Assembly (NCBI RefSeq): GCF_002965065.1
Contig: NZ_PTRE01000079.1
Coordinates: 1 to 53,554 of the forward strand
Direction: 5' to 3'
DNA from: Escherichia sp. MOD1-EC7003
GTDB lineage: Bacteria > Pseudomonadota > Gammaproteobacteria > Enterobacterales > Enterobacteriaceae
DNA length: 53,554 bases
Shown here: in pieces, positions 40,633-49,646 of the stretch
Layout: the number at the start of each line of letters is the position of its first letter
Numbering within the stretch: the stretch's first letter is position 1
Notes under the pieces: model-generated
The model's database searches: none
Seen by the model: only the letters and a program-made list of their open reading frames with translations
Told to the model about the DNA's origin: nothing
Translations under genes and position numbers: made by a program

Positions 40633-41309
40633 TGCAATTCCTGAATATGTTCTTCTTTGATATCTACCCGTACATAGCCGGGGCGGTCTTCCTGATTGGT
40701 AGCTGGCTTCGTTATGACTATGGGCAGTACACCTGGCGCGCGGCGTCCAGTCAGATGCTGGATCGTAAAGGGATGAACCTGGCGTCGAATCTGTTCCATA
40801 TCGGTATTCTGGGGATTTTTGTCGGTCACTTCTTCGGTATGCTGACGCCGCACTGGATGTATGAAGCCTGGCTGCCGATTGACGTGAAACAGAAAATGGC
40901 GATGATTGCTGGTGGTGCCAGCGGCGTGCTGTGTCTGATTGGCGGTGTGCTGTTGCTGAAACGCCGCCTGTTCAGCCCACGCGTGCGTGCAACGACTACC
41001 GGAGCGGATATTTTGATCTTGTCGCTGCTCGTTATTCAGTGTGCGCTGGGCCTGCTGACCATTCCGTTCTCTGCTCAGCATATGGACGGTAGTGAGATGA
41101 TGAAACTGGTTGGCTGGGCGCAGTCGGTGGTGACCTTCCAGGGGGGGGCTTCTCAATATCTCGAGGGTGTTGCGTTTATCTTTCGTCTACACCTGGTGCT
41201 GGGGATGACGTTATTCCTGCTGTTTCCGTTCTCGCGTCTGGTGCACATCTGGAGCGTACCGGTGGAATATCTGACACGTAAGTATCAGTTGGTGCGCGCT
41301 CGTCACTAA
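40632..41309 (+). CDS. narI: Respiratory nitrate reductase A, gamma subunit
   Basis: NarI (225 residues) is the membrane anchor and cytochrome b subunit. It oxidises quinol at the periplasmic face and passes electrons through two b hemes to NarH. Five helices carry the heme histidines, visible in [18 protein letters not shown] and [21 protein letters not shown]. It is the last gene of narGHJI. Confidence 0.98.
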
Positions 41310-41320
41310 GCGCAATAAAG

Positions 41321-41420
41321 TGCCTGATGCGCTGCGCTTATCAGGCCTACAGAGTCATACAATTTATTGATATTACGTGATATGTAGGCCGGATAAGGCG
41401 TTCACGCCGCATCCGGCATA
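41321..41420. repeat. BIME with two REP palindromes after narI
   Basis: GCCTGATGCGCTGCGCTTATCAGGCCTAC (about 41321-41350) and TGTAGGCCGGATAAGGCGTTCACGCCGCATCCGGC (about 41383-41418) are REP units in opposite orientation, separated by 32 AT-rich bases. This is a usual BIME. It lies between narI and the accessory lipid operon and may stabilise the nar mRNA 3' end. Confidence 0.92.
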
Positions 41421-41479
41421 ACGCAAAGCACGTTGTCAGTCTTCTGAAATCACCAGTTACACAGTGCCGATTTTTCGGA

Positions 41480-41509
41480 TTGTAGGGAAACGTACTTCAT
41501 CTATATGAT
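41480..41509 (+). promoter_or_regulatory. Possible promoter of the lipid operon
   Basis: TTGTAG (41480-41485), an 18-bp spacer and TATGAT (41504-41509) form a fair sigma-70 candidate, with a start near 41516, about 30 bp before the first gene. I see no FNR, CRP or other known operator in the 120 bases between the BIME and the gene. Confidence 0.35.
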
Positions 41510-41544
41510 TGGTCCACCTATGGAGCAGTGAAGGAGCACTGACC

Positions 41545-42552
41545 GTGGCTCGACCGAATCAACCGACGATCTCCGCGGCGTTAAAAATAATCGCCACGGG
41601 GATCGCTTTACCCCCTGATAAAATCACTTCTCAACAACTGGATGTTCAGTTAAATAAGCCAGTTGGCTACGTGGAGCGACGTTCCGGTATTTGCTGGCGT
41701 TATTTCGCCCGTAACGATGCCAGCCAGGCCGAACTGGCGGCAAAGGCTTTGCATAATGCGCTATCGGCTGCTTCGTTAAAACCGTGTGATATTGACCTGC
41801 TAATTTGTGCCTCGGCTATTGCCGTACAGGCATTACCCTGTAGCGCAATTCATATTCTTAAAGCCGCAGCCATGCCCGTAGGCGTTGCCGGGTTTGATAT
41901 CAACAGTAGCTGTGTGAGCTTTATTTCTGCTCTGGAAGTTGCTGCTGGATTATTAAACTGTGGAGCATACCAGCGAATTGCCATCGTCTCGGCAGATATT
42001 GCTTCACGCGGTATCGACTGGGATCATGAAGAGTCTTCATTAATTTTTGGTGATGGTGCGGCGTGTGCGATTGTCGAGCGGGGCGATGGGCACAGCGGGA
42101 TTATCGCCAGCCTGATCGAAATGTATCCCGAAGGCAGCGAACTGTGTGAAATACGCGCCGGCGGTACGCGGCGTAATCCTCGTTCTGGTGTGAGTGACAG
42201 CGACTTTCTTTTTCATATGCAGGGGAAACCGCTGTTTCGTTTTGCTTCTTCGCTTATTGAAGATTATTTTTCTCGGTTGCTGCAAAAAAGCAGCCTGCAA
42301 CTGGATGATATCGGCACGGTCGTTCCACATCAGGCCAGTCATCTTTCCCTTGAGCATATGCGTAAACGGCTGCGAGTGCCGGAATCTGCGCTCATCGATG
42401 TGTATCGTTTTTACGGCAATCAGGTCGCGGCCTCTATCCCCACGGCGCTGCATGAAGCAGTGATTAGCGGTCGTTTCACAGCGGATAAACCTGTAATGTT
42501 GATTGGCACGGCAGCGGGACTAACGCTGGCTGGCATGGTGCTTTTACCGTGA
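41545..42552 (+). CDS. 3-oxoacyl-ACP synthase III-like enzyme
   Basis: A 335-residue thiolase-fold enzyme of the KASIII class, expected to condense an acyl-CoA or acyl-ACP with a second thioester. The full catalytic triad is present: Cys123 in INSSCVSF, His262 in VVPHQASH and Asn292 in FYGNQVAAS. ERRSGICWRYFA (44-55) is the usual KASIII arginine-rich motif and FGDGAAC a structural loop. It is not the housekeeping fabH: the sequence differs throughout and the neighbours are wrong. OleA, PqsD and similar enzymes belong to the same superfamily. I chose the GTG at 41545, after GAAGGAG; an upstream extension to 41509 covers the ribosome site. Its stop overlaps the next GTG start (GTGA). Confidence 0.88.
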   Translation: MARPNQPTISAALKIIATGIALPPDKITSQQLDVQLNKPVGYVERRSGICWRYFARNDASQAELAAKALHNALSAASLKPCDIDLLICASAIAVQALPCSAIHILKAAAMPVGVAGFDINSSCVSFISALEVAAGLLNCGAYQRIAIVSADIASRGIDWDHEESSLIFGDGAACAIVERGDGHSGIIASLIEMYPEGSELCEIRAGGTRRNPRSGVSDSDFLFHMQGKPLFRFASSLIEDYFSRLLQKSSLQLDDIGTVVPHQASHLSLEHMRKRLRVPESALIDVYRFYGNQVAASIPTALHEAVISGRFTADKPVMLIGTAAGLTLAGMVLLP

Positions 42553-43565
42553 AGATCCTCGTAACAGGGGCGACCAGCGGCCTTGGGCGAAATGCCGTGC
42601 AATATTTGTTGCAATCGGGTGAGTCGGTTGTGGCAACAGGGCGAAATTGTGAGGTTGGCAGAAGCCTGACAAACGCAGGCGCACAGTTTGTGGCTCTCGA
42701 TTTAACCGAGGCAACCGAGGATGACTGCGCCCGCCTGATGGACGGCTGCGATGCCGTCTGGCACTGTGCGGCAAAGTCCTCGCCCTGGGGCGACAAAACG
42801 GTGTTCTGGCTTGCCAATGTCAAAGTGACCCACACTCTGGCACAGGCGGCAGGCAGGCTGAATATTCCCCAGTTTATCCATATCTCCACGCCTGCGGTTT
42901 ACTTTGATTTTCAACATCACTATGACCTGCCAGAAACTTATCTTGCGCGAGCATTCTCCAGCCATTATGCCAGCAGTAAATATGCCGCTGAGCAGGTTAT
43001 TGCTGGCGCTGTTTCTCGATATTCTGCCACGAGATTTATTCTTTTGCGTCCCCGTGGTTTGTTTGGCCCCCATGACCAGGTAATTGTTCCTCGTCTGATG
43101 CAGCAATTGCAACAGGGTGGCGGTTGCTTACGTTTGCCGCGCGGGGGCGACGCGTTATTGGATCTCACGTTCGTGCAAAACGTGGTGTATGCCATGCGGC
43201 TGGCAACGAACGTTGAAGGTTTACGCTCGGGCAGTATTTACAACATCAGCAATCACCAGCCGCAGCAGCTATCGGTGATGCTTGACGCCTTGCTGCACCA
43301 GCAACTGGGCTTGAGTTACCGCATTGCTGCTGTTCCCTGGTCGCTGCTTTCTCTGGTCGCGCGTGGCCTGGAACTGTACGGGAAGTGCGTTAATCAGGAA
43401 CCTGTTATCACACGATACAGCGCCGGAACACTCTGTTTCGATATGACGCTGAGTGCGCAAAAGGCCATTACAGAGCTGGGATATCGCCCGCGCTTTTCGA
43501 TGGAACAAGGTATTGCAATCACGGGACAATGGCTGAGGGAACATGGCAAAAATAACCGCATTTGA
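42549..43565 (+). CDS. NAD(P)-dependent extended SDR, OleD-like
   Basis: A 338-residue extended short-chain dehydrogenase of the 3-beta-hydroxysteroid dehydrogenase type. The cofactor loop is GATSGLG (7-13), the catalytic pair is Tyr140 and Lys144 (HYASSKYA), and AAKSSPWGD (74-82) matches the AAK.G.WG segment of OleD, the reductase that turns the beta-ketoacid made by OleA into a beta-hydroxyacid. With the KASIII-like gene just upstream this suggests condensation followed by ketone reduction. The start is a GTG overlapping the previous stop by 4 bp, and the 3' end overlaps the next gene by 23 bp. Confidence 0.88.
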   Translation: MKILVTGATSGLGRNAVQYLLQSGESVVATGRNCEVGRSLTNAGAQFVALDLTEATEDDCARLMDGCDAVWHCAAKSSPWGDKTVFWLANVKVTHTLAQAAGRLNIPQFIHISTPAVYFDFQHHYDLPETYLARAFSSHYASSKYAAEQVIAGAVSRYSATRFILLRPRGLFGPHDQVIVPRLMQQLQQGGGCLRLPRGGDALLDLTFVQNVVYAMRLATNVEGLRSGSIYNISNHQPQQLSVMLDALLHQQLGLSYRIAAVPWSLLSLVARGLELYGKCVNQEPVITRYSAGTLCFDMTLSAQKAITELGYRPRFSMEQGIAITGQWLREHGKNNRI

Positions 43566-44349
43566 AACGGGCTGGTGTACCCATATTAGCTGTATTGCGC
43601 TGAAAGGGGCAGGGCTGAAAGTGTGCAAATTCCCCTCCCGTGCCTGGCTGCTGGAGGTGGGCGACAAACGGTGGCTGTGGGACACAGGCTATTCATCGTG
43701 GTTCGAACACTACACGCAATCTGGTGTGTTTCGTCTTTATCGCCAGGTCACGCCGGTTTATTTCGATCCGCAACAGGCGCTGGTGCGGCAACTTTCTGCC
43801 ACCGGCCTCGCAGCGAAAGATGTTGATGCGATTATTCTGTCGCATTTTCACGCTGATCATATTGCTGGTTTGCGTGATTTCCCTGATGTTTCCTGCATCT
43901 GTTCTGGTGAAGGCTGGCGGCAAGTAAGAACTCTGCGTGGTGTCACTGCGCTGCGCCAGGCCTTTGTGCCAGGGCTAATCCCGGAGAATTTTGACTCCTC
44001 ACTGCGCTTTATTGAAAGTTTCGCATCGGTGAATTTGCCCGCGCAACTGGCACCGTTTGAGTGCGGCTATTTGCTGCCAGAAAGCAATGGCGAAATTATT
44101 CTCGTGCCGCTTCCCGGACATGCTGCCGGACATATTGGCGCGTTTGTGTTAACCGACAACGGCTGGACTTTACTGGCTGGCGATGCGGCATGGGCGCCAG
44201 CTAACTACCGGGATCTGCGAGGGCCTTCACCACTGGCGCATCTGGTTATGTCCGACAGCCACGCCTACTACCACACGCTTGGGCAACTCCATCAGCTTTG
44301 GCAAAACGGTGTAGTGGAGATTCGTTTGTGCCATGAGGGGGATTTATGA
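43543..44349 (+). CDS. Metallo-beta-lactamase-fold hydrolase
   Basis: A 268-residue cytoplasmic MBL-fold protein with the two-metal site motifs HFHADH (101-106), GHAAGH (192-197), GDAAW and a C-terminal CHEGDL. It is closest in style to the AHL-lactonase/thioesterase branch rather than to glyoxalases or antibiotic-cleaving enzymes. In this operon it could release a product from its thioester or open a lactone. It has no signal peptide. It overlaps the gene before by 23 bp and the one after by 4 bp. Confidence 0.85.
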   Translation: MAKITAFETGWCTHISCIALKGAGLKVCKFPSRAWLLEVGDKRWLWDTGYSSWFEHYTQSGVFRLYRQVTPVYFDPQQALVRQLSATGLAAKDVDAIILSHFHADHIAGLRDFPDVSCICSGEGWRQVRTLRGVTALRQAFVPGLIPENFDSSLRFIESFASVNLPAQLAPFECGYLLPESNGEIILVPLPGHAAGHIGAFVLTDNGWTLLAGDAAWAPANYRDLRGPSPLAHLVMSDSHAYYHTLGQLHQLWQNGVVEIRLCHEGDL

Positions 44350-45632
44350 TCCCGTTGATGTTGATCTGGCGCTACTTTCGTACCCGCAAGCTGCATTTCA
44401 CCGATCGCGAGGCACTGGAAAACTGGCAGGCAAAAAGGCTGCATCAGTTCCGGCAAAATGTCTTATCTCATAGCACGTGGTTTCAGCGTTATCTGACGTT
44501 GCCCTTTAATCAGTGGCCAATGATGGATAAGGCGTTAATGATGACGCACTTCGATGAGATGAATACCGCAGGTTTAAAGCGCGACGAACTTCTCGATTGT
44601 GCAATGCGCAGTGAGCAGAGTCGTGATTTCAAACCCTGCGTTGGTAAGTTCAGCGTTGGGCTTTCATCAGGTACATCCGGGCGTCGTGGACTTTTTGTTG
44701 TTAGCCCGCACGAGCAACAGATGTGGGCCGCCGGTGTGCTGGCAAAAGTGTTGCCCGACGGTTTATTTGCCAAAGAGCGGGTGGCGCTGTTTCTGCGCGC
44801 GGACAATAACCTGTATCAAAGCGTGAATAATCGCTGGTTAAGTCTCGATTTTTACGATCTGCTAGCGTCATTTCAGGCGCAACTCAAACTTCTCCAACAG
44901 CGAGCGCCCACGATTATTGTCGCGCCAGCTCAGGTATTACGCGCACTGGCGCTGGAGGTAATGGCCGGCGAATTGACGCTAAAGGTCAAAAAAGTGATTT
45001 CGGTGGCGGAAGTTCTGGAGCCGCAGGATCGGGAATTACTGCGCAACGTGTTCCACAATGTGGGGGAAATTTATCAGGCGACAGAAGGCTTTCTCGCTTC
45101 CACCTGCCGGTGTGGAACGTTACATCTCAACGAAGAGTTTGTTCACATTGAACCGCAATGGCTGGATGAGCACCGTTTCGTGCCGATCGTCACAGACTTT
45201 ACCCGCACCACACAGCCGATAGTGCGTTATCGACTGGATGATGTGCTGGTGGCAAGCGAACAACCATGCCCCTGTGGCAGTGCAACAATGGCGATTGCGC
45301 GTATCGAAGGGCGGCAGGATGACCAACTGCAACTACCAACAAGATCCGGCGATATTCAGACCGTTTTTGCCGATGCCTGTAGTCGTGTGCTGGCAATGGT
45401 ACTGCCGCTAACAGTCGATTATCGCCTGCTACAAACCGGGTCAGCACAATTGACGTTAATCGCCGATTGCGAGCTGTGGATGCTGGAGCATTGCCGGGAG
45501 GCTTTGAATGCCTTGTTTATACGCCAGGATATCGCTGTCGGGCAATTAATTTGGTCGCTGGAACCGCAAACTGTGCCAGTCTCTTTTACAGCCAAGCGGC
45601 GGCGCATTGTGCGTCAGTGGGGGCGGGAATGA
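44346..45632 (+). CDS. Adenylate-forming enzyme, F390 synthetase/PaaK-like
   Basis: A 428-residue member of the adenylate-forming superfamily in the branch annotated as F390-synthetase-related. The phosphate-binding loop is GLSSGTSGRRGLF (about residues 105-117), and YQATEGFLASTCRCGTLHLN contains the A5-like motif. Cysteine pairs CRC and CPC suggest a structural metal, as in PaaK relatives. It is shorter than fatty-acyl-CoA ligases of the OleC/FadD type and has only a small C-terminal lid. It probably activates a carboxylic acid as an adenylate; whether CoA, a hydroxyl or an amine is the acceptor is unknown. It has 4-bp overlaps on both sides. Confidence 0.82.
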   Translation: MIPLMLIWRYFRTRKLHFTDREALENWQAKRLHQFRQNVLSHSTWFQRYLTLPFNQWPMMDKALMMTHFDEMNTAGLKRDELLDCAMRSEQSRDFKPCVGKFSVGLSSGTSGRRGLFVVSPHEQQMWAAGVLAKVLPDGLFAKERVALFLRADNNLYQSVNNRWLSLDFYDLLASFQAQLKLLQQRAPTIIVAPAQVLRALALEVMAGELTLKVKKVISVAEVLEPQDRELLRNVFHNVGEIYQATEGFLASTCRCGTLHLNEEFVHIEPQWLDEHRFVPIVTDFTRTTQPIVRYRLDDVLVASEQPCPCGSATMAIARIEGRQDDQLQLPTRSGDIQTVFADACSRVLAMVLPLTVDYRLLQTGSAQLTLIADCELWMLEHCREALNALFIRQDIAVGQLIWSLEPQTVPVSFTAKRRRIVRQWGRE

Positions 45633-46231
45633 GCAATTCACTGCTACGCCTGAAACAGATGCTGCTGGGCTGGGGAACCGTTGGGGTTATCTACAACTTT
45701 AGCGACTACCTGCAAGGTGAGGGATATCAATTAACACCGTCAATAATTGATAATTTGATTGCGTTTTCCCCCTCCGCTGTGTGGCTGTATCTCTCGTTTT
45801 TTTTCATTGTGCCGTTAGGTTATTTATCCACGCCACTTTGCCACCTGCGCTGGCTGGCCCGTTCAATGCAAATTTCCGCACTGGTGGCAGGCGTATTTTA
45901 TCTTCTCTGGCCCACAACCATGCATTATCCCTCGTTTGATCAGATGGGGATATCCGCGGGCGCACTCAACAGGCTGATCGCCATTGACTCAAGCCAGAAC
46001 TGTTTTCCCTCCTTACACGCCGCGCTAACGCTGTTGGCGGTATGGGCGATTGCCAAAAAGGGGAACCGTTGGCTGACGCTAATGAGCGTGGTCTGGGCGA
46101 TAGCAATCGCCTTTTCGATTCTGCAATTACGCAGACATTTATTTATCGATTTAGTAGGCGGCGCGTTGCTGGCGTCGATTTGCGGTTGGATATGCGCAAC
46201 ATGCGAGAAAAGGAAGACACAATATGAGTGA
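45629..46231 (+). CDS. PAP2-family membrane phosphatase or transferase
   Basis: A 200-residue membrane protein with about five helices. The phosphatase motif that is usually PSGH reads PSLH (Cys-Phe-Pro127-Ser-Leu-His130), and the final motif is LQLRRHLFID with His170 and Asp174. PSLH and this spacing are features of the PAP2_3 or AUR1-like branch, some members of which are phospho-base transferases, not simple phosphatases. It could dephosphorylate a lipid phosphate or transfer a headgroup. I chose ATG 45629 (ATGA overlap with the ligase stop); the long open frame upstream is a shadow. It overlaps the next gene by 8 bp. Confidence 0.8.
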   Translation: MSNSLLRLKQMLLGWGTVGVIYNFSDYLQGEGYQLTPSIIDNLIAFSPSAVWLYLSFFFIVPLGYLSTPLCHLRWLARSMQISALVAGVFYLLWPTTMHYPSFDQMGISAGALNRLIAIDSSQNCFPSLHAALTLLAVWAIAKKGNRWLTLMSVVWAIAIAFSILQLRRHLFIDLVGGALLASICGWICATCEKRKTQYE

Positions 46232-47348
46232 TTTATTATTCCCCATCATATCGATGGTGCTGTTGGTGTTAGCCGAAGCAGGCGTGTTGCAATTCACCGG
46301 GCGGCAAAAAGTGGACTGGCTGGACGTTATTTTTAATATCAACTCCGGTCATATGATGCTGTGGTTATTTCGCTGCCTGGAAGTGCTCTGCTATGGCCTG
46401 GTGGTCAATCACTTCAGCCTTGGACTGTTTGATAATGCGCCGGTGATCCTGCTGTGGTTGTTTACTATCCTGGCATGGGATTTCGGCTTTTACTGGCTGC
46501 ATCGCTGGCATCACGAAATGCGCCCGCTGTGGGCGGTACATGTGGTGCATCATCAGGGGGAACACTACAACCTGTCATTAGGCGTGCGGAACTCGTGGTA
46601 CTCCTCGTTAACCTCAATCCCGTTTTTTATGCTGCTGGCGATGCTTGGTGTGCCGTTGCAGATCTTTTTGGCGGTTTCTATTATTCACTATAGTTGGCAA
46701 TTTTTTAACCATAACGCACTAACGCCGAAACTGGGCTGGCTGGAAAAAGTGCTGATCACGCCTTCGCATCATCGCGTCCATCATCTGAATCAAAAGCAAT
46801 ATGCCGATACCAATTACGGTGGCACCTTTTTGTTGTGGGATAAACTTTTCGGTTCGTATAGTGCCGGGCCGGAATACGACGTAGGCTACGGCGTAAAAAA
46901 TAGTCGCTTGTCCTGTAACCCGATGCGCGAGAGTAATCTGCCGTTTTTACGCTTGATGGGCTTTCGCTCATTTGGCAAAGCGATTGAAGGTCGCTACCAG
47001 AGTTCTCCATGGGCGGTAGGGGCAGGGGTGATCCTGCTGTTTATGCTGGTGCTTGGCTACATTCAACAATATGGCTATGGCATTGAGTTTATTACCAGCG
47101 AGCAAGCCGTATTATTTGTTCTGCTGGCGGCAGGCTCCGTTGCGCTGGGGGGCATGAGCGACGGGCAGCATTGGGGTATGATTTTGTGGTGCTCTGTGAC
47201 GTTGTCACTGCTCTATTTTATTGTCTATATGTGTTCATGGAGTACTCTGCTCTGGAAGGGATTAGTGGGTATTCTGCTGGCCCATTGCCTGTTATTTGTA
47301 ATCGGCGTAGGACGTAAATCGCTAAGGAAACAGTATGAACCTGTTTAA
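46224..47348 (+). CDS. Fatty acid/sterol hydroxylase-family di-iron membrane protein
   Basis: A 374-residue integral membrane protein of the fatty acid hydroxylase superfamily. The three histidine boxes that bind the two irons are HRWHH (93-97), HVVHH (106-110) and HHRVHH (about 188-193). It should use O2 to hydroxylate or otherwise oxidise an acyl or alkyl chain. After the catalytic domain come about 100 further residues with three or four more helices (from about 260), a plan reminiscent of alkylglycerol monooxygenase and longer than the minimal hydroxylases. It overlaps neighbours by 8 and 14 bp. Confidence 0.87.
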   Translation: MSDLLFPIISMVLLVLAEAGVLQFTGRQKVDWLDVIFNINSGHMMLWLFRCLEVLCYGLVVNHFSLGLFDNAPVILLWLFTILAWDFGFYWLHRWHHEMRPLWAVHVVHHQGEHYNLSLGVRNSWYSSLTSIPFFMLLAMLGVPLQIFLAVSIIHYSWQFFNHNALTPKLGWLEKVLITPSHHRVHHLNQKQYADTNYGGTFLLWDKLFGSYSAGPEYDVGYGVKNSRLSCNPMRESNLPFLRLMGFRSFGKAIEGRYQSSPWAVGAGVILLFMLVLGYIQQYGYGIEFITSEQAVLFVLLAAGSVALGGMSDGQHWGMILWCSVTLSLLYFIVYMCSWSTLLWKGLVGILLAHCLLFVIGVGRKSLRKQYEPV

Positions 47349-48426
47349 TCCCGACAGGTTAATCACTTTTCCTGCCGATGATCCACAACTGGTGAAACAA
47401 CTGCAAAGCGGTACGAAAGTTTATCTGGCGAAATCAGGCGATCACCGGTATGCCGACGGATGGGCATTCGTCAAAATGGCGGTGTTGATTATTGCTTGTT
47501 TCTCCTGTTACTTACTGGCGTTGTTTCAACGTCAATGGGGACTGTATCTGTTGTGGTATCTCGCGATGATGTTTTGCGCCATGTTGTTAGCGGTCAATGT
47601 GGTGCATGACGCTTCGCATGATGCGTTTTTGCGTGGTAAAAAGACCAATGCCCGGCTTAACCGGTGGGTTGCTTTTCCTATGGGGCTAGATCCGGACTGC
47701 TGGCGAGTGCGCCACGTTCGCTTTCATCACGGTTTTACCAATATTGAATTTTACGATCCAGACACAGCAGAAAATGGCATTCTTCGCCAGACGCCGTGGC
47801 AACGGTGGCGACCTTTTATGCGCCAGCAACATCGCTATTGGCCACTGGTCGCCGCGCTCACCTTTCCCTGGTATATCTGGGTAGTGGACTGGCTCGATCG
47901 CGCAGGGTTTACGCCGGTCACGCGACATCTGGCCCTGCGAGGCTTTGCTGGCTGGGGATATTTCTTAGCCGGGAAACTGGCGCATTGTGCGCTGTGTCTG
48001 ATACTTCCCTGGCTTTTGTCTGATTTTAGTTTTATGACCATCCTGCTGACTTATCTGCTCAGCCAGCTGCTGGCGTCATTGATTTTTGTGACGTTGATTA
48101 TTGGAACGCACTGGGCGAAGGGATATACGCAGTTACCACCAGAAGAGGGCAAAATGCCCGTGGGCAGACTGGCGCATACCTTTGCTACCACCTTTGACTG
48201 GACGCCGCAACCTGCATGGCTTGGCTACTGGCTGGGCGGGATTAATCTGCACCTTACCCATCATCTGTTTCCTCACTGGCATCATCGCCATTATCCGGCG
48301 CTAAGCCGCATTATTGCACAAATTGCCAGCCAGCAAGGTCTGGATTATCAGTTGTTGACGTTAGCGGATTTGTTGAGGCTACAGCAGCAGTTTTTACGGC
48401 GAATGGGGGAGAAGGTGAAGGCTTGA
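47335..48426 (+). CDS. Membrane fatty acid desaturase
   Basis: A 363-residue acyl-lipid or acyl-CoA desaturase. Histidine boxes are HDASHD (91-96), HVRFHHGFTN (about 123-132) and HLTHHLFPHWHH (about 305-316). About four membrane helices are arranged as in the FA_desaturase family. It needs O2 and an electron donor such as ferredoxin or cytochrome b5; none is encoded in the operon. E. coli makes its normal unsaturated acids anaerobically through FabA/FabB, so a desaturase here points to a special lipid. It is the last gene, and its stop is only 16 bp from the 3' end of a tyrosine tRNA gene on the other strand. Confidence 0.9.
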   Translation: MNLFNPDRLITFPADDPQLVKQLQSGTKVYLAKSGDHRYADGWAFVKMAVLIIACFSCYLLALFQRQWGLYLLWYLAMMFCAMLLAVNVVHDASHDAFLRGKKTNARLNRWVAFPMGLDPDCWRVRHVRFHHGFTNIEFYDPDTAENGILRQTPWQRWRPFMRQQHRYWPLVAALTFPWYIWVVDWLDRAGFTPVTRHLALRGFAGWGYFLAGKLAHCALCLILPWLLSDFSFMTILLTYLLSQLLASLIFVTLIIGTHWAKGYTQLPPEEGKMPVGRLAHTFATTFDWTPQPAWLGYWLGGINLHLTHHLFPHWHHRHYPALSRIIAQIASQQGLDYQLLTLADLLRLQQQFLRRMGEKVKA

Positions 48427-48442
48427 TAATGGAATCAAGTGA

Positions 48443-48527
<85 letters not shown>

Positions 48528-48560
48528 AGGGGTAATTCATATTGTAGGTAATGCTTAAGA

Positions 48561-48645
<85 letters not shown>

Positions 48646-48695
48646 ACGGGGTAATGCTTTTTACTGGCCTGCTCCCTCACTGGGAAGCGGGACGC

Positions 48696-48723
48696 ATCAT
48701 ATCAAATGATGCGCCGCTGTAAA
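48696..48723 (-). promoter_or_regulatory. tyrT promoter
   Basis: On the minus strand the sequence is TTTACA (48723-48718), a 16-bp spacer, TATGAT (48701-48696) and a GC-rich discriminator GCGTCCCGC. It matches the well-known E. coli tyrT promoter, which is under stringent and growth-rate control through that discriminator. The start should be near 48689. Confidence 0.92.
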
Positions 48724-48803
48724 GGGTTACGTTCAGAAAAATGAACTGGTTGCGTAATTTTCATCCGTAACGGATTAAAGCTAACCAGTTATTTTGCGGG
48801 CGA

Positions 48804-49646
48804 TTAAAGAATAATCGTCCGGTTACCGTAAACAAATACACGCTGCGCCAGTACTTTGTAGAGCGCGCGGCTTAATACGTTCTTCTCGACGTCACGACCT
48901 GCGCGCATCATATCTTCAGCGGTGTAGGTATGATCGACATGAATAACATCCTGCATAATGATGGGACCTTCATCCAGATTATCATTCACATAGTGAGCAG
49001 TTGCGCCAATAATCTTCACGCCACGCTCATAGGCCTGGTGATACGGACGTGCACCGATAAACGCTGGCAGGAATGAATGGTGAATATTGATAATTTTATT
49101 CGGGAAGCGCGCCACGAACTCCGGCGTCAATACCCGCATATACTTCGCCAGCACCACATAGTCAGGCTGATAAGCATCAATGGCATCAGCCATCTTTTGA
49201 TCGTGCTCATTACGGCTTAACCCTTCATGACTTACCAGCTCAAATGGAATATCAAAACGCTCGACCAGGGAACGTAAAGTCTCGTGGTTACCAATAACCG
49301 CCGCGATTTCGACATCCAGGCCACCATAGTTGGCCTTCATCAGCAGATCGCCAAGGCAATGCGCTTCTTTAGTCACCAGAATCACTATCCGGCGACGACC
49401 GGCGGGATTCAGCTCACGCACGGAGCCTTCTGGCAATGCGCTATCGAGATCTGCCAGTAGGGTGGAATCATTAAAAATGCCTTCCAGTTCCGTGCGCATA
49501 AAAAAGCGCCCGGTACGGTGATCAACAAATTCATTGTTCTGCACGATATTTAACTCGTGCTTGTAGCAAATATTGGTAATACGCGCGATCAGACCTTTTT
49601 GGTCCGGACAAATAGTACGCAGAACTTTACGTTGGAGTGAATGCAT
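48804..49646 (-). CDS. purU: Formyltetrahydrofolate deformylase
   Basis: PurU hydrolyses 10-formyltetrahydrofolate to tetrahydrofolate and formate. It balances one-carbon units and supplies formate for PurT. The 280-residue protein has an N-terminal ACT domain (about 8-85, RTICPDQKGLIARITNICYK) and a formyltransferase-like domain with NIHHSFLPAFIGARPYHQAY and ATAHYVNDNLDEGPII. Confidence 0.97.
   Translation of the reverse strand: MHSLQRKVLRTICPDQKGLIARITNICYKHELNIVQNNEFVDHRTGRFFMRTELEGIFNDSTLLADLDSALPEGSVRELNPAGRRRIVILVTKEAHCLGDLLMKANYGGLDVEIAAVIGNHETLRSLVERFDIPFELVSHEGLSRNEHDQKMADAIDAYQPDYVVLAKYMRVLTPEFVARFPNKIINIHHSFLPAFIGARPYHQAYERGVKIIGATAHYVNDNLDEGPIIMQDVIHVDHTYTAEDMMRAGRDVEKNVLSRALYKVLAQRVFVYGNRTIIL

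Follow-up and report, generated by a model that had tools for sequence, protein, structure and literature searches.

A seven-gene operon of Escherichia with a conserved four-gene core and an exchangeable finishing part, predicted to build an unusual lipid

In the window analysed here, a 53,554-nucleotide stretch of Escherichia sp. MOD1-EC7003 (contig NZ_PTRE01000079.1), seven intact plus-strand reading frames, here called A to G (41545-48426), lie between narI and two tRNA-Tyr genes and form an operon that divides into a conserved core, A-B-C-D, and a second module of finishing genes that can be exchanged. An initial annotation, made from the letters alone, had described seven same-strand genes overlapping by 4 to 23 bp; its coordinates and overlaps were reproduced (4, 23, 4, 4, 8 and 14 bp from A/B to F/G), and RefSeq annotates the same seven coding sequences in E. 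coli. Pfam and NCBIfam upheld the family that it had assigned to each gene and found no dedicated carrier, transporter or regulator among the seven, as it had stated, while the catalytic motifs it had called intact consist of residues conserved across relatives. To judge by its genes, the operon appears to assemble an unusual lipid of membrane type by a route not yet described, with finishing steps that differ between bacteria.

The two modules are apparent from the neighbourhoods of gene D, which encodes an adenylating enzyme of family TIGR02304. Related loci were taken as the best 80 of at least 540 D relatives from a scan of named bacterial genomes. All of A to D are present in 77 of these; the exceptions are L092 and L105, where A was not found, and L126, where D lies at a contig edge. 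The full order A-B-C-D-E-F-G recurs in 49 of the 80 loci, and this recurrence, together with ratios of nonsynonymous to synonymous divergence (dN/dS) of 0.05-0.18, excludes a chance arrangement. Fourteen further loci were fetched from order and phylum genome samples, in which 17 were listed besides the source genome. All 13 with a D above the family cut-off carry A, B and C beside it, an ATP-grasp gene separating A from B in L145. At the remaining locus, L143, the copy is broken and scores under the cut-off: D lies in two frames, pieces of A, C and D survive, and the sole reductase match belongs to a GT21 set (see below), as its second SDR. Two distant loci also hold A to D (L039 and L040, the latter with B in two frames and D under the cut-off), and no A, B or C was found at three weaker D-like matches (L041-L043). 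Core and D family thus occur jointly, A to C being found beside D genes above the cut-off and missing at the weaker matches.

The genes that follow the core vary. The E-F-G set frequently occurs with two desaturases. Another set, present in 11 of the 80 loci and in 7 of them without E-F-G, comprises a second short-chain dehydrogenase/reductase (SDR), a GT21 glycosyltransferase (PF13506, 124.6 bits), a protein of about 190 aa and an MGT-like glycosyltransferase, which is missing in L052; GT21 we take to be the ceramide glucosyltransferase family. Neither the 190-aa protein nor a 363-aa neighbour protein has a Pfam match. In L121 and L125 the core is followed by an adenylation protein of 1002-1037 aa, and the label non-ribosomal peptide synthetase (NRPS)-like rests here on length and motifs seen by eye because Pfam shows only AMP-binding domains in L121; L111, L117 and L120 gave NRPS matches over part of the length only, with 23-25% identity, and do not enter the count of NRPS-like neighbours. 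ATP-grasp proteins exceed the Pfam cut-off in L040, L140, L144 and L145 and fall below it in L138 (20.9 of 23.2 bits), and Rieske proteins lie near the core in L040, L136 and L141. A DUF3419 protein is encoded in L141 (PF11899, 229.7 bits); in PMC10685587 a putative betaine lipid synthase is assigned to this family. At that locus (L141:4649-7010) the core, the Rieske gene, the DUF3419 gene and two small genes stand in one run, which makes a further candidate finishing set. Nine loci have the core but no E-F-G, GT21 or NRPS-like protein, or only a partial AMP-binding match (L079, L088, L089, L094, L095, L101, L111, L123 and, with B to D only, L092); of these, L094 and L095 break off shortly behind D. 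A FastTree phylogeny of A to D requires two changes for GT21 and eight for E-F-G, the latter count being made after 10 of 72 tree rows from contig-edge or partial loci were dropped.

Gene A (41545-42552; 335 aa) begins with GTG at 41545, which matches the RefSeq start in E. coli, and its frame could open at TTG 41509. It encodes a KASIII-like condensing enzyme (Pfam ACP_syn_III/ACP_syn_III_C) with the Cys-His-Asn triad of the FabH/KASIII superfamily, C123, H262 and N292 each occurring in 75 of 75 aligned rows. It reaches 335 bits against NF005541 (cut-off 402) and 194.1 bits against the FabH model TIGR00747, below the cut-off of 292.1. Its nearest solved chains are 4v2p (E 1.4e-47) and CorB 4yuc (E 3.2e-44), presumably stand-alone ketosynthases of the myxopyronin and corallopyronin pathways that make alpha-pyrones. 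The invariant Q-A-L-P loop of A aligns with QAVP in both of these interconnecting ketosynthases, MxnB and CorB; unlike their pathways, the operon comes without a modular polyketide synthase, and FabH-type chains score A nearly as high.

Gene C (43543-44349; 268 aa) encodes a metallo-beta-lactamase-fold hydrolase of the group formed by acyl-homoserine lactone (AHL) lactonases and 4-pyridoxolactonase, and its profile matches AiiA, GcL and 4-pyridoxolactonase in the PDB over nearly its full length. The metal-ligand pattern is the same as in these enzymes: among rows with letters at the positions, HxHxDH (H101, H103, D105, H106) is found in 31 of 31, and H193, D214 and H264 in 32 of 32. C differs from them in staying far below each curated lactonase cut-off (55.6 of 325 bits at best) and in an N-terminus (window 43576-43630, residues 12-28) where C12, H14 and C17 occur in 31 of 31 rows and C28 in 30 of 31, possibly a second metal site or a disulfide. 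The solved relatives of A and the quorum-quenching relatives of C suggest one alternative, namely that the operon yields a small lipid that diffuses and serves as signal or antibiotic, for instance an alkyl lactone or an alpha-pyrone, which A would make, C would turn over and the membrane enzymes would decorate. We consider this quite improbable: the seven genes include no receptor or transporter, and head groups are suggested by the fold of E and by the GT21 and DUF3419 genes found next to the core in other genomes. These hints of head groups weaken the small lipid signal that the initial annotation had offered as one likely output, while its picture of a functional-looking, lipid-modifying operon stands.

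Gene B (42549-43565; 338 aa) encodes an extended SDR oxidoreductase (Epimerase/3Beta_HSD) with Y140 and K144 in 79 of 79 rows. The nearest curated families are OleD-type, and its scores against the OleD equivalogs NF042422 and NF042423 (143.3 and 151.3 bits) lie far below the cut-off of 580. Neither B nor F had a match among PDB sequences at the limits used. Gene D (44346-45632; 428 aa) encodes a PaaK-type acid-adenylating enzyme that scores 747.4 bits against TIGR02304, 'F390 synthetase-related' (curated cut-off 251.9), and 15.6 bits against the PaaK equivalog TIGR02155, below 646.3; it has no Pfam match at E 0.01. Its predicted structure (model pLDDT 89.3) shows the PaaK-type ANL fold, and the nearest folds by Foldseek and VIA are BT_0428, AjiA1, NatL2, PaaK and 2-hydroxyisobutyryl-CoA ligase, where the absence of other families from the neighbour list, as from that of E, is no evidence against them. 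With the PaaK-type ligases (PaaK, AjiA1, NatL2, BT_0428) D shares the fold, the C...H...CxC residues and the motif lysine K417, present in 80 of 80 rows; it differs from them in its identity of 16-20% and its placement in a separate family. A 'Coenzyme F390 synthetase' of a kiwifruit pathogen, IYO_RS29540, which carries a reduced-virulence insertion according to PMC9823363, is probably not a D orthologue, with the nearby IYO_RS29530 being of the anthranilate-synthase type, and was left unused.

By combining a KASIII-like enzyme with a reductase of OleD type and an enzyme that adenylates, the operon recalls the OleABCD and lipstatin pathways. By analogy, two acyl chains would be condensed, B would reduce the product, D would close a beta-lactone and C would open or process it, with an olefin, a lactone or a 2-alkyl-3-hydroxy acid as the result. 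The lactonase profile of C fits this scheme, and the lipstatin pathway resembles the arrangement of the core with an NRPS-like protein seen in two loci. We nevertheless regard it as fairly unlikely. B reaches only 143-151 of 580 bits; D, having no Pfam match, does not belong to PF00501, to which we take OleC to belong, and is PaaK-like; the alpha/beta-hydrolase OleB is lacking among the seven genes, a lactonase-fold enzyme standing in its place; and the membrane module E-F-G has no part in olefin formation. Overall, the operon lacks the OleABCD defining features that were tested and falls short of every curated equivalog except TIGR02304, a family that carries no functional assignment. Both the signal and the beta-lactone explanations are weaker than that of a lipid with a polar head group.

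The finishing part of the window consists of three membrane-type enzymes. Gene E (45629-46231; 200 aa) encodes a PAP2/PAP2_3 membrane protein with PSLH and RHxxxD motifs, H130, H170 and D174 being found in 35 of 35 rows. The folds that come out nearest to its predicted structure (model pLDDT 94.9), only slightly ahead of PAP2 phosphatases, are those of the ceramide phosphotransferases SMSr and AUR1, over nearly the full length and with the same motifs, whereas identity to them is 14%, the sequence profile puts LpxE first and the operon has no sphingolipid synthesis genes; for serine palmitoyltransferase, no aminotransferase-type domain was found among the seven genes, the rest of the genome not having been searched for it. 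Gene F (46224-47348; 374 aa) encodes a di-iron membrane enzyme of the fatty-acid-hydroxylase/sterol-desaturase family (Pfam FA_hydroxylase, 99.4 bits), and gene G (47335-48426; 363 aa) a fatty acid desaturase (Pfam FA_desaturase, 88.3 bits). Eight histidines are invariant in each, at positions 93, 97, 106, 109, 110, 183, 186 and 187 of F (H93 to H187; 57 of 57 rows) and at H91, H95, H127, H131, H132, H306, H309 and H310 of G (55 of 55). Both families require oxygen. The weak match of F to the ornithine-lipid hydroxylase OlsE (66.9 of 475 bits) and the first rank of LpxE in the profile of E would suit a modification of ordinary phospholipids or lipid A, in which F and G would hydroxylate and desaturate chains already in place, E would act as a PAP2 phosphatase and A to D would do no more than tune precursor supply. 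This explanation seems quite improbable to us, since A-B-C-D occur without E-F-G and the core thus has its own product; E-F-G was seen at a D gene without the core only at the contig edge of L126.

Instead, we favour, at about even chances, a two-part lipid pathway in which the core builds a backbone that is then finished at the membrane. A would form a carbon-carbon bond by condensing acyl units, B would reduce the resulting keto group, C would hydrolyse an intermediate that is an ester, a thioester or a lactone, and D would adenylate a free carboxylate, readying it to be joined to an amine, an alcohol or CoA, so that A to D would deliver a hydroxylated, fatty-acid-derived backbone. E would move a phospho-head group from a phospholipid onto a hydroxyl, as SMSr and AUR1 do with ceramide, F would hydroxylate and G desaturate the chains, both using oxygen, and in other bacteria glycosyltransferases or other finishing enzymes would take the place of this part. 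What the analysis itself establishes is the gene content with its enzyme families and motifs, the conservation of the catalytic residues and of the core, the variability of the finishing genes, purifying selection and the predicted folds of D and E; from these we infer the order of reactions, all substrates and a transferring rather than hydrolysing E, and a two-chain, ceramide-shaped backbone is our guess. A head-group lipid is preferred over a hydrocarbon or signal because the reactions expected of E, GT21 and DUF3419 share one theme, the joining of something polar to a hydroxyl on a lipid; neighbours of the ATP-grasp, Rieske and NRPS-like kinds fit with it and are no argument by themselves. 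More tentatively, and with the odds against it, A to D may make an undescribed backbone class, neither glycerol-, sphingoid- nor hopanoid-based, in which a two-chain, ceramide-shaped acceptor produced by a KASIII-SDR-lactonase-PaaK route is finished with phospho (E), glycosyl (GT21/MGT) or aminocarboxypropyl (DUF3419) heads.

Several points weigh against this two-part pathway. A also matches the FabH-type chain 2ebd (E 3.3e-42) and, judged by such likeness, may simply start or extend one chain. SMSr and AUR1 lead over PAP2 phosphatases in the fold comparison of E by 1 to 1.6 Z units, and in its sequence profile LpxE (E 0.021) ranks slightly above AUR1 (0.051, 0.062); because of this profile order and the small structural lead, E may yet be a phosphatase. 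By Pfam and NCBIfam, no supplier of an amine or glycerol-like head is encoded among the seven genes, the DUF3419 protein of L141 has no NCBIfam match, and ordinary phospholipids, instead of the core product, could be what the finishing enzymes act on. No described operon with this gene content was found in searches of the open-access PubMed Central (PMC) literature, in agreement with the initial annotation, to which no known enterobacterial lipid pathway of this composition had come to mind, and we rate the operon as following known lipid or polyketide logic in an arrangement for which no description was found.

The operon is no local oddity, as it might first have seemed. Of 5426 complete E. 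coli genomes searched by megablast, 672 carry it, 671 with at least 80% of its length, and the carriers among the matches listed include the probiotic Nissle 1917, CFT073, ATCC 25922, LF82, NRG 857C, ABU 83972, JJ1886 and O25b:H4-ST131 strains, which we take to be phylogroup B2. In two E. coli genomes (H17, NZ_CM135823.1, and H82, NZ_CP107128.1), an ISApl1 (IS30-type) transposase lies beneath the operon match of one and the match is divided between two places in the other. The 80 related loci span Enterobacterales, Pseudomonas, Burkholderiales, Neisseriaceae and Gilliamella, and core hosts in the beta- and gammaproteobacteria include bee-gut, insect- and plant-associated genera. In genome samples in which the source genome was counted every time, D genes above the TIGR02304 cut-off were present in 7 of 12 Escherichia (genus), 15 of 295 at order, 2 of 369 at class and 7 of 398 at phylum level, counts that drop beyond the genus because those samples were drawn evenly. 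Spread by plasmids was considered and rejected: two plasmid records match the operon, and the one inspected (L135, NZ_CP141085.1) is a chromosomal segment, since its operon lies between narGHJI and purU-hns; CP054248.1 was not inspected. A phage origin was set aside with zero matches among 50,697 phage records, as was a defence system, PADLOC giving only a match of C to LmuA (17.1 bits, E 5.7e-4) and nothing for the other six genes.

The operon evolves under purifying selection. Against six other Escherichia genomes, dN/dS was 0.05-0.18 in 41 gene comparisons (G is missing in the truncated L049), with tighter constraint on the flanking narJ, narI and purU (0.01-0.08); values against E. coli itself range from 0 to 0.5 and, with few changes, are little informative. 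Synonymous divergence (dS) from two E. coli genomes is 0.01-0.04 for B to G, 0.14-0.17 for A and 0.22-0.29 for narJ, narI and purU. In 300-bp windows against E. coli (L133, L130, L038), identity is 97-100% over about 42.3-48.3 kb, with one window of 94.0% against ABU 83972; the nar genes reach 91-97% and purU 93-94%. Identity and dS thus both set the operon apart from its more divergent flanks, and we conclude that it was recently exchanged with E. coli by recombination. The tract extends over about 42001-48550, without regard to strand, and its breaks lie within A and near the tRNA-Tyr genes. G+C is 0.49-0.55 per kilobase of the operon, similar to the surroundings.

The operon adjoins narI in the window and also in 10 of the 80 related loci, which come from seven Serratia, Leclercia, Citrobacter gillenii and Escherichia, and such copies in other genera rule out a strain-specific island or recent foreign insertion. 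On the A-D tree the narI location requires 4 changes, against a mean of 10.4 after shuffling and with none of 500 shuffles as low (FastTree only). Either one ancient insertion with losses or repeated insertion may account for the site. The tree groups Leminorella with Escherichia and Leclercia and places Snodgrassella L079, Pseudomonas and an Azoarcus bin among Enterobacterales; because these placements cross family lines, the operon also moves between families.

At this site the initial annotation had allowed K-12 only tpr and the rtT repeats; both are there, and ychS is also present. In the 718-bp gap of K-12 no leftover of the operon's coding sequence was found (best blastx E 0.54), the only match being 27 bp of REP-like repeat sequence. 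The tRNA-Tyr array beyond G (window 48443-48645; L131, L134) has two genes in the window, one in JJ1886 and two in K-12 with longer rtT-type repeats. The plus-strand gap between narI and A (41310-41544) holds REP-like repeats and the remnant of a terminator-like hairpin known from operon-bearing E. coli, in which a hairpin with a T-run (-12.1 to -14.7 kcal/mol) separates narI from A; it is decayed in the source window. Because of this hairpin in the E. coli relatives, co-transcription with narGHJI is not to be assumed, and coupling to expression of the anaerobic nitrate reductase would be odd since the families of F and G need oxygen. A candidate promoter, TTGTAG-18-TATGAT at 41480-41509, was found by eye only; a consensus scan of 41200-48830 listed no plus-strand promoter.

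The lipids of E. coli count as well catalogued, and yet an intact, selected seven-gene lipid pathway is found in Nissle 1917, ATCC 25922, CFT073, LF82 and ST131 strains. If the core does make a new backbone class, probiotic and extraintestinal E. coli would produce an unnoticed membrane or host-interacting lipid, and should the product be ceramide-like, it would bear on how the host recognises E. coli of the gut and urinary tract.

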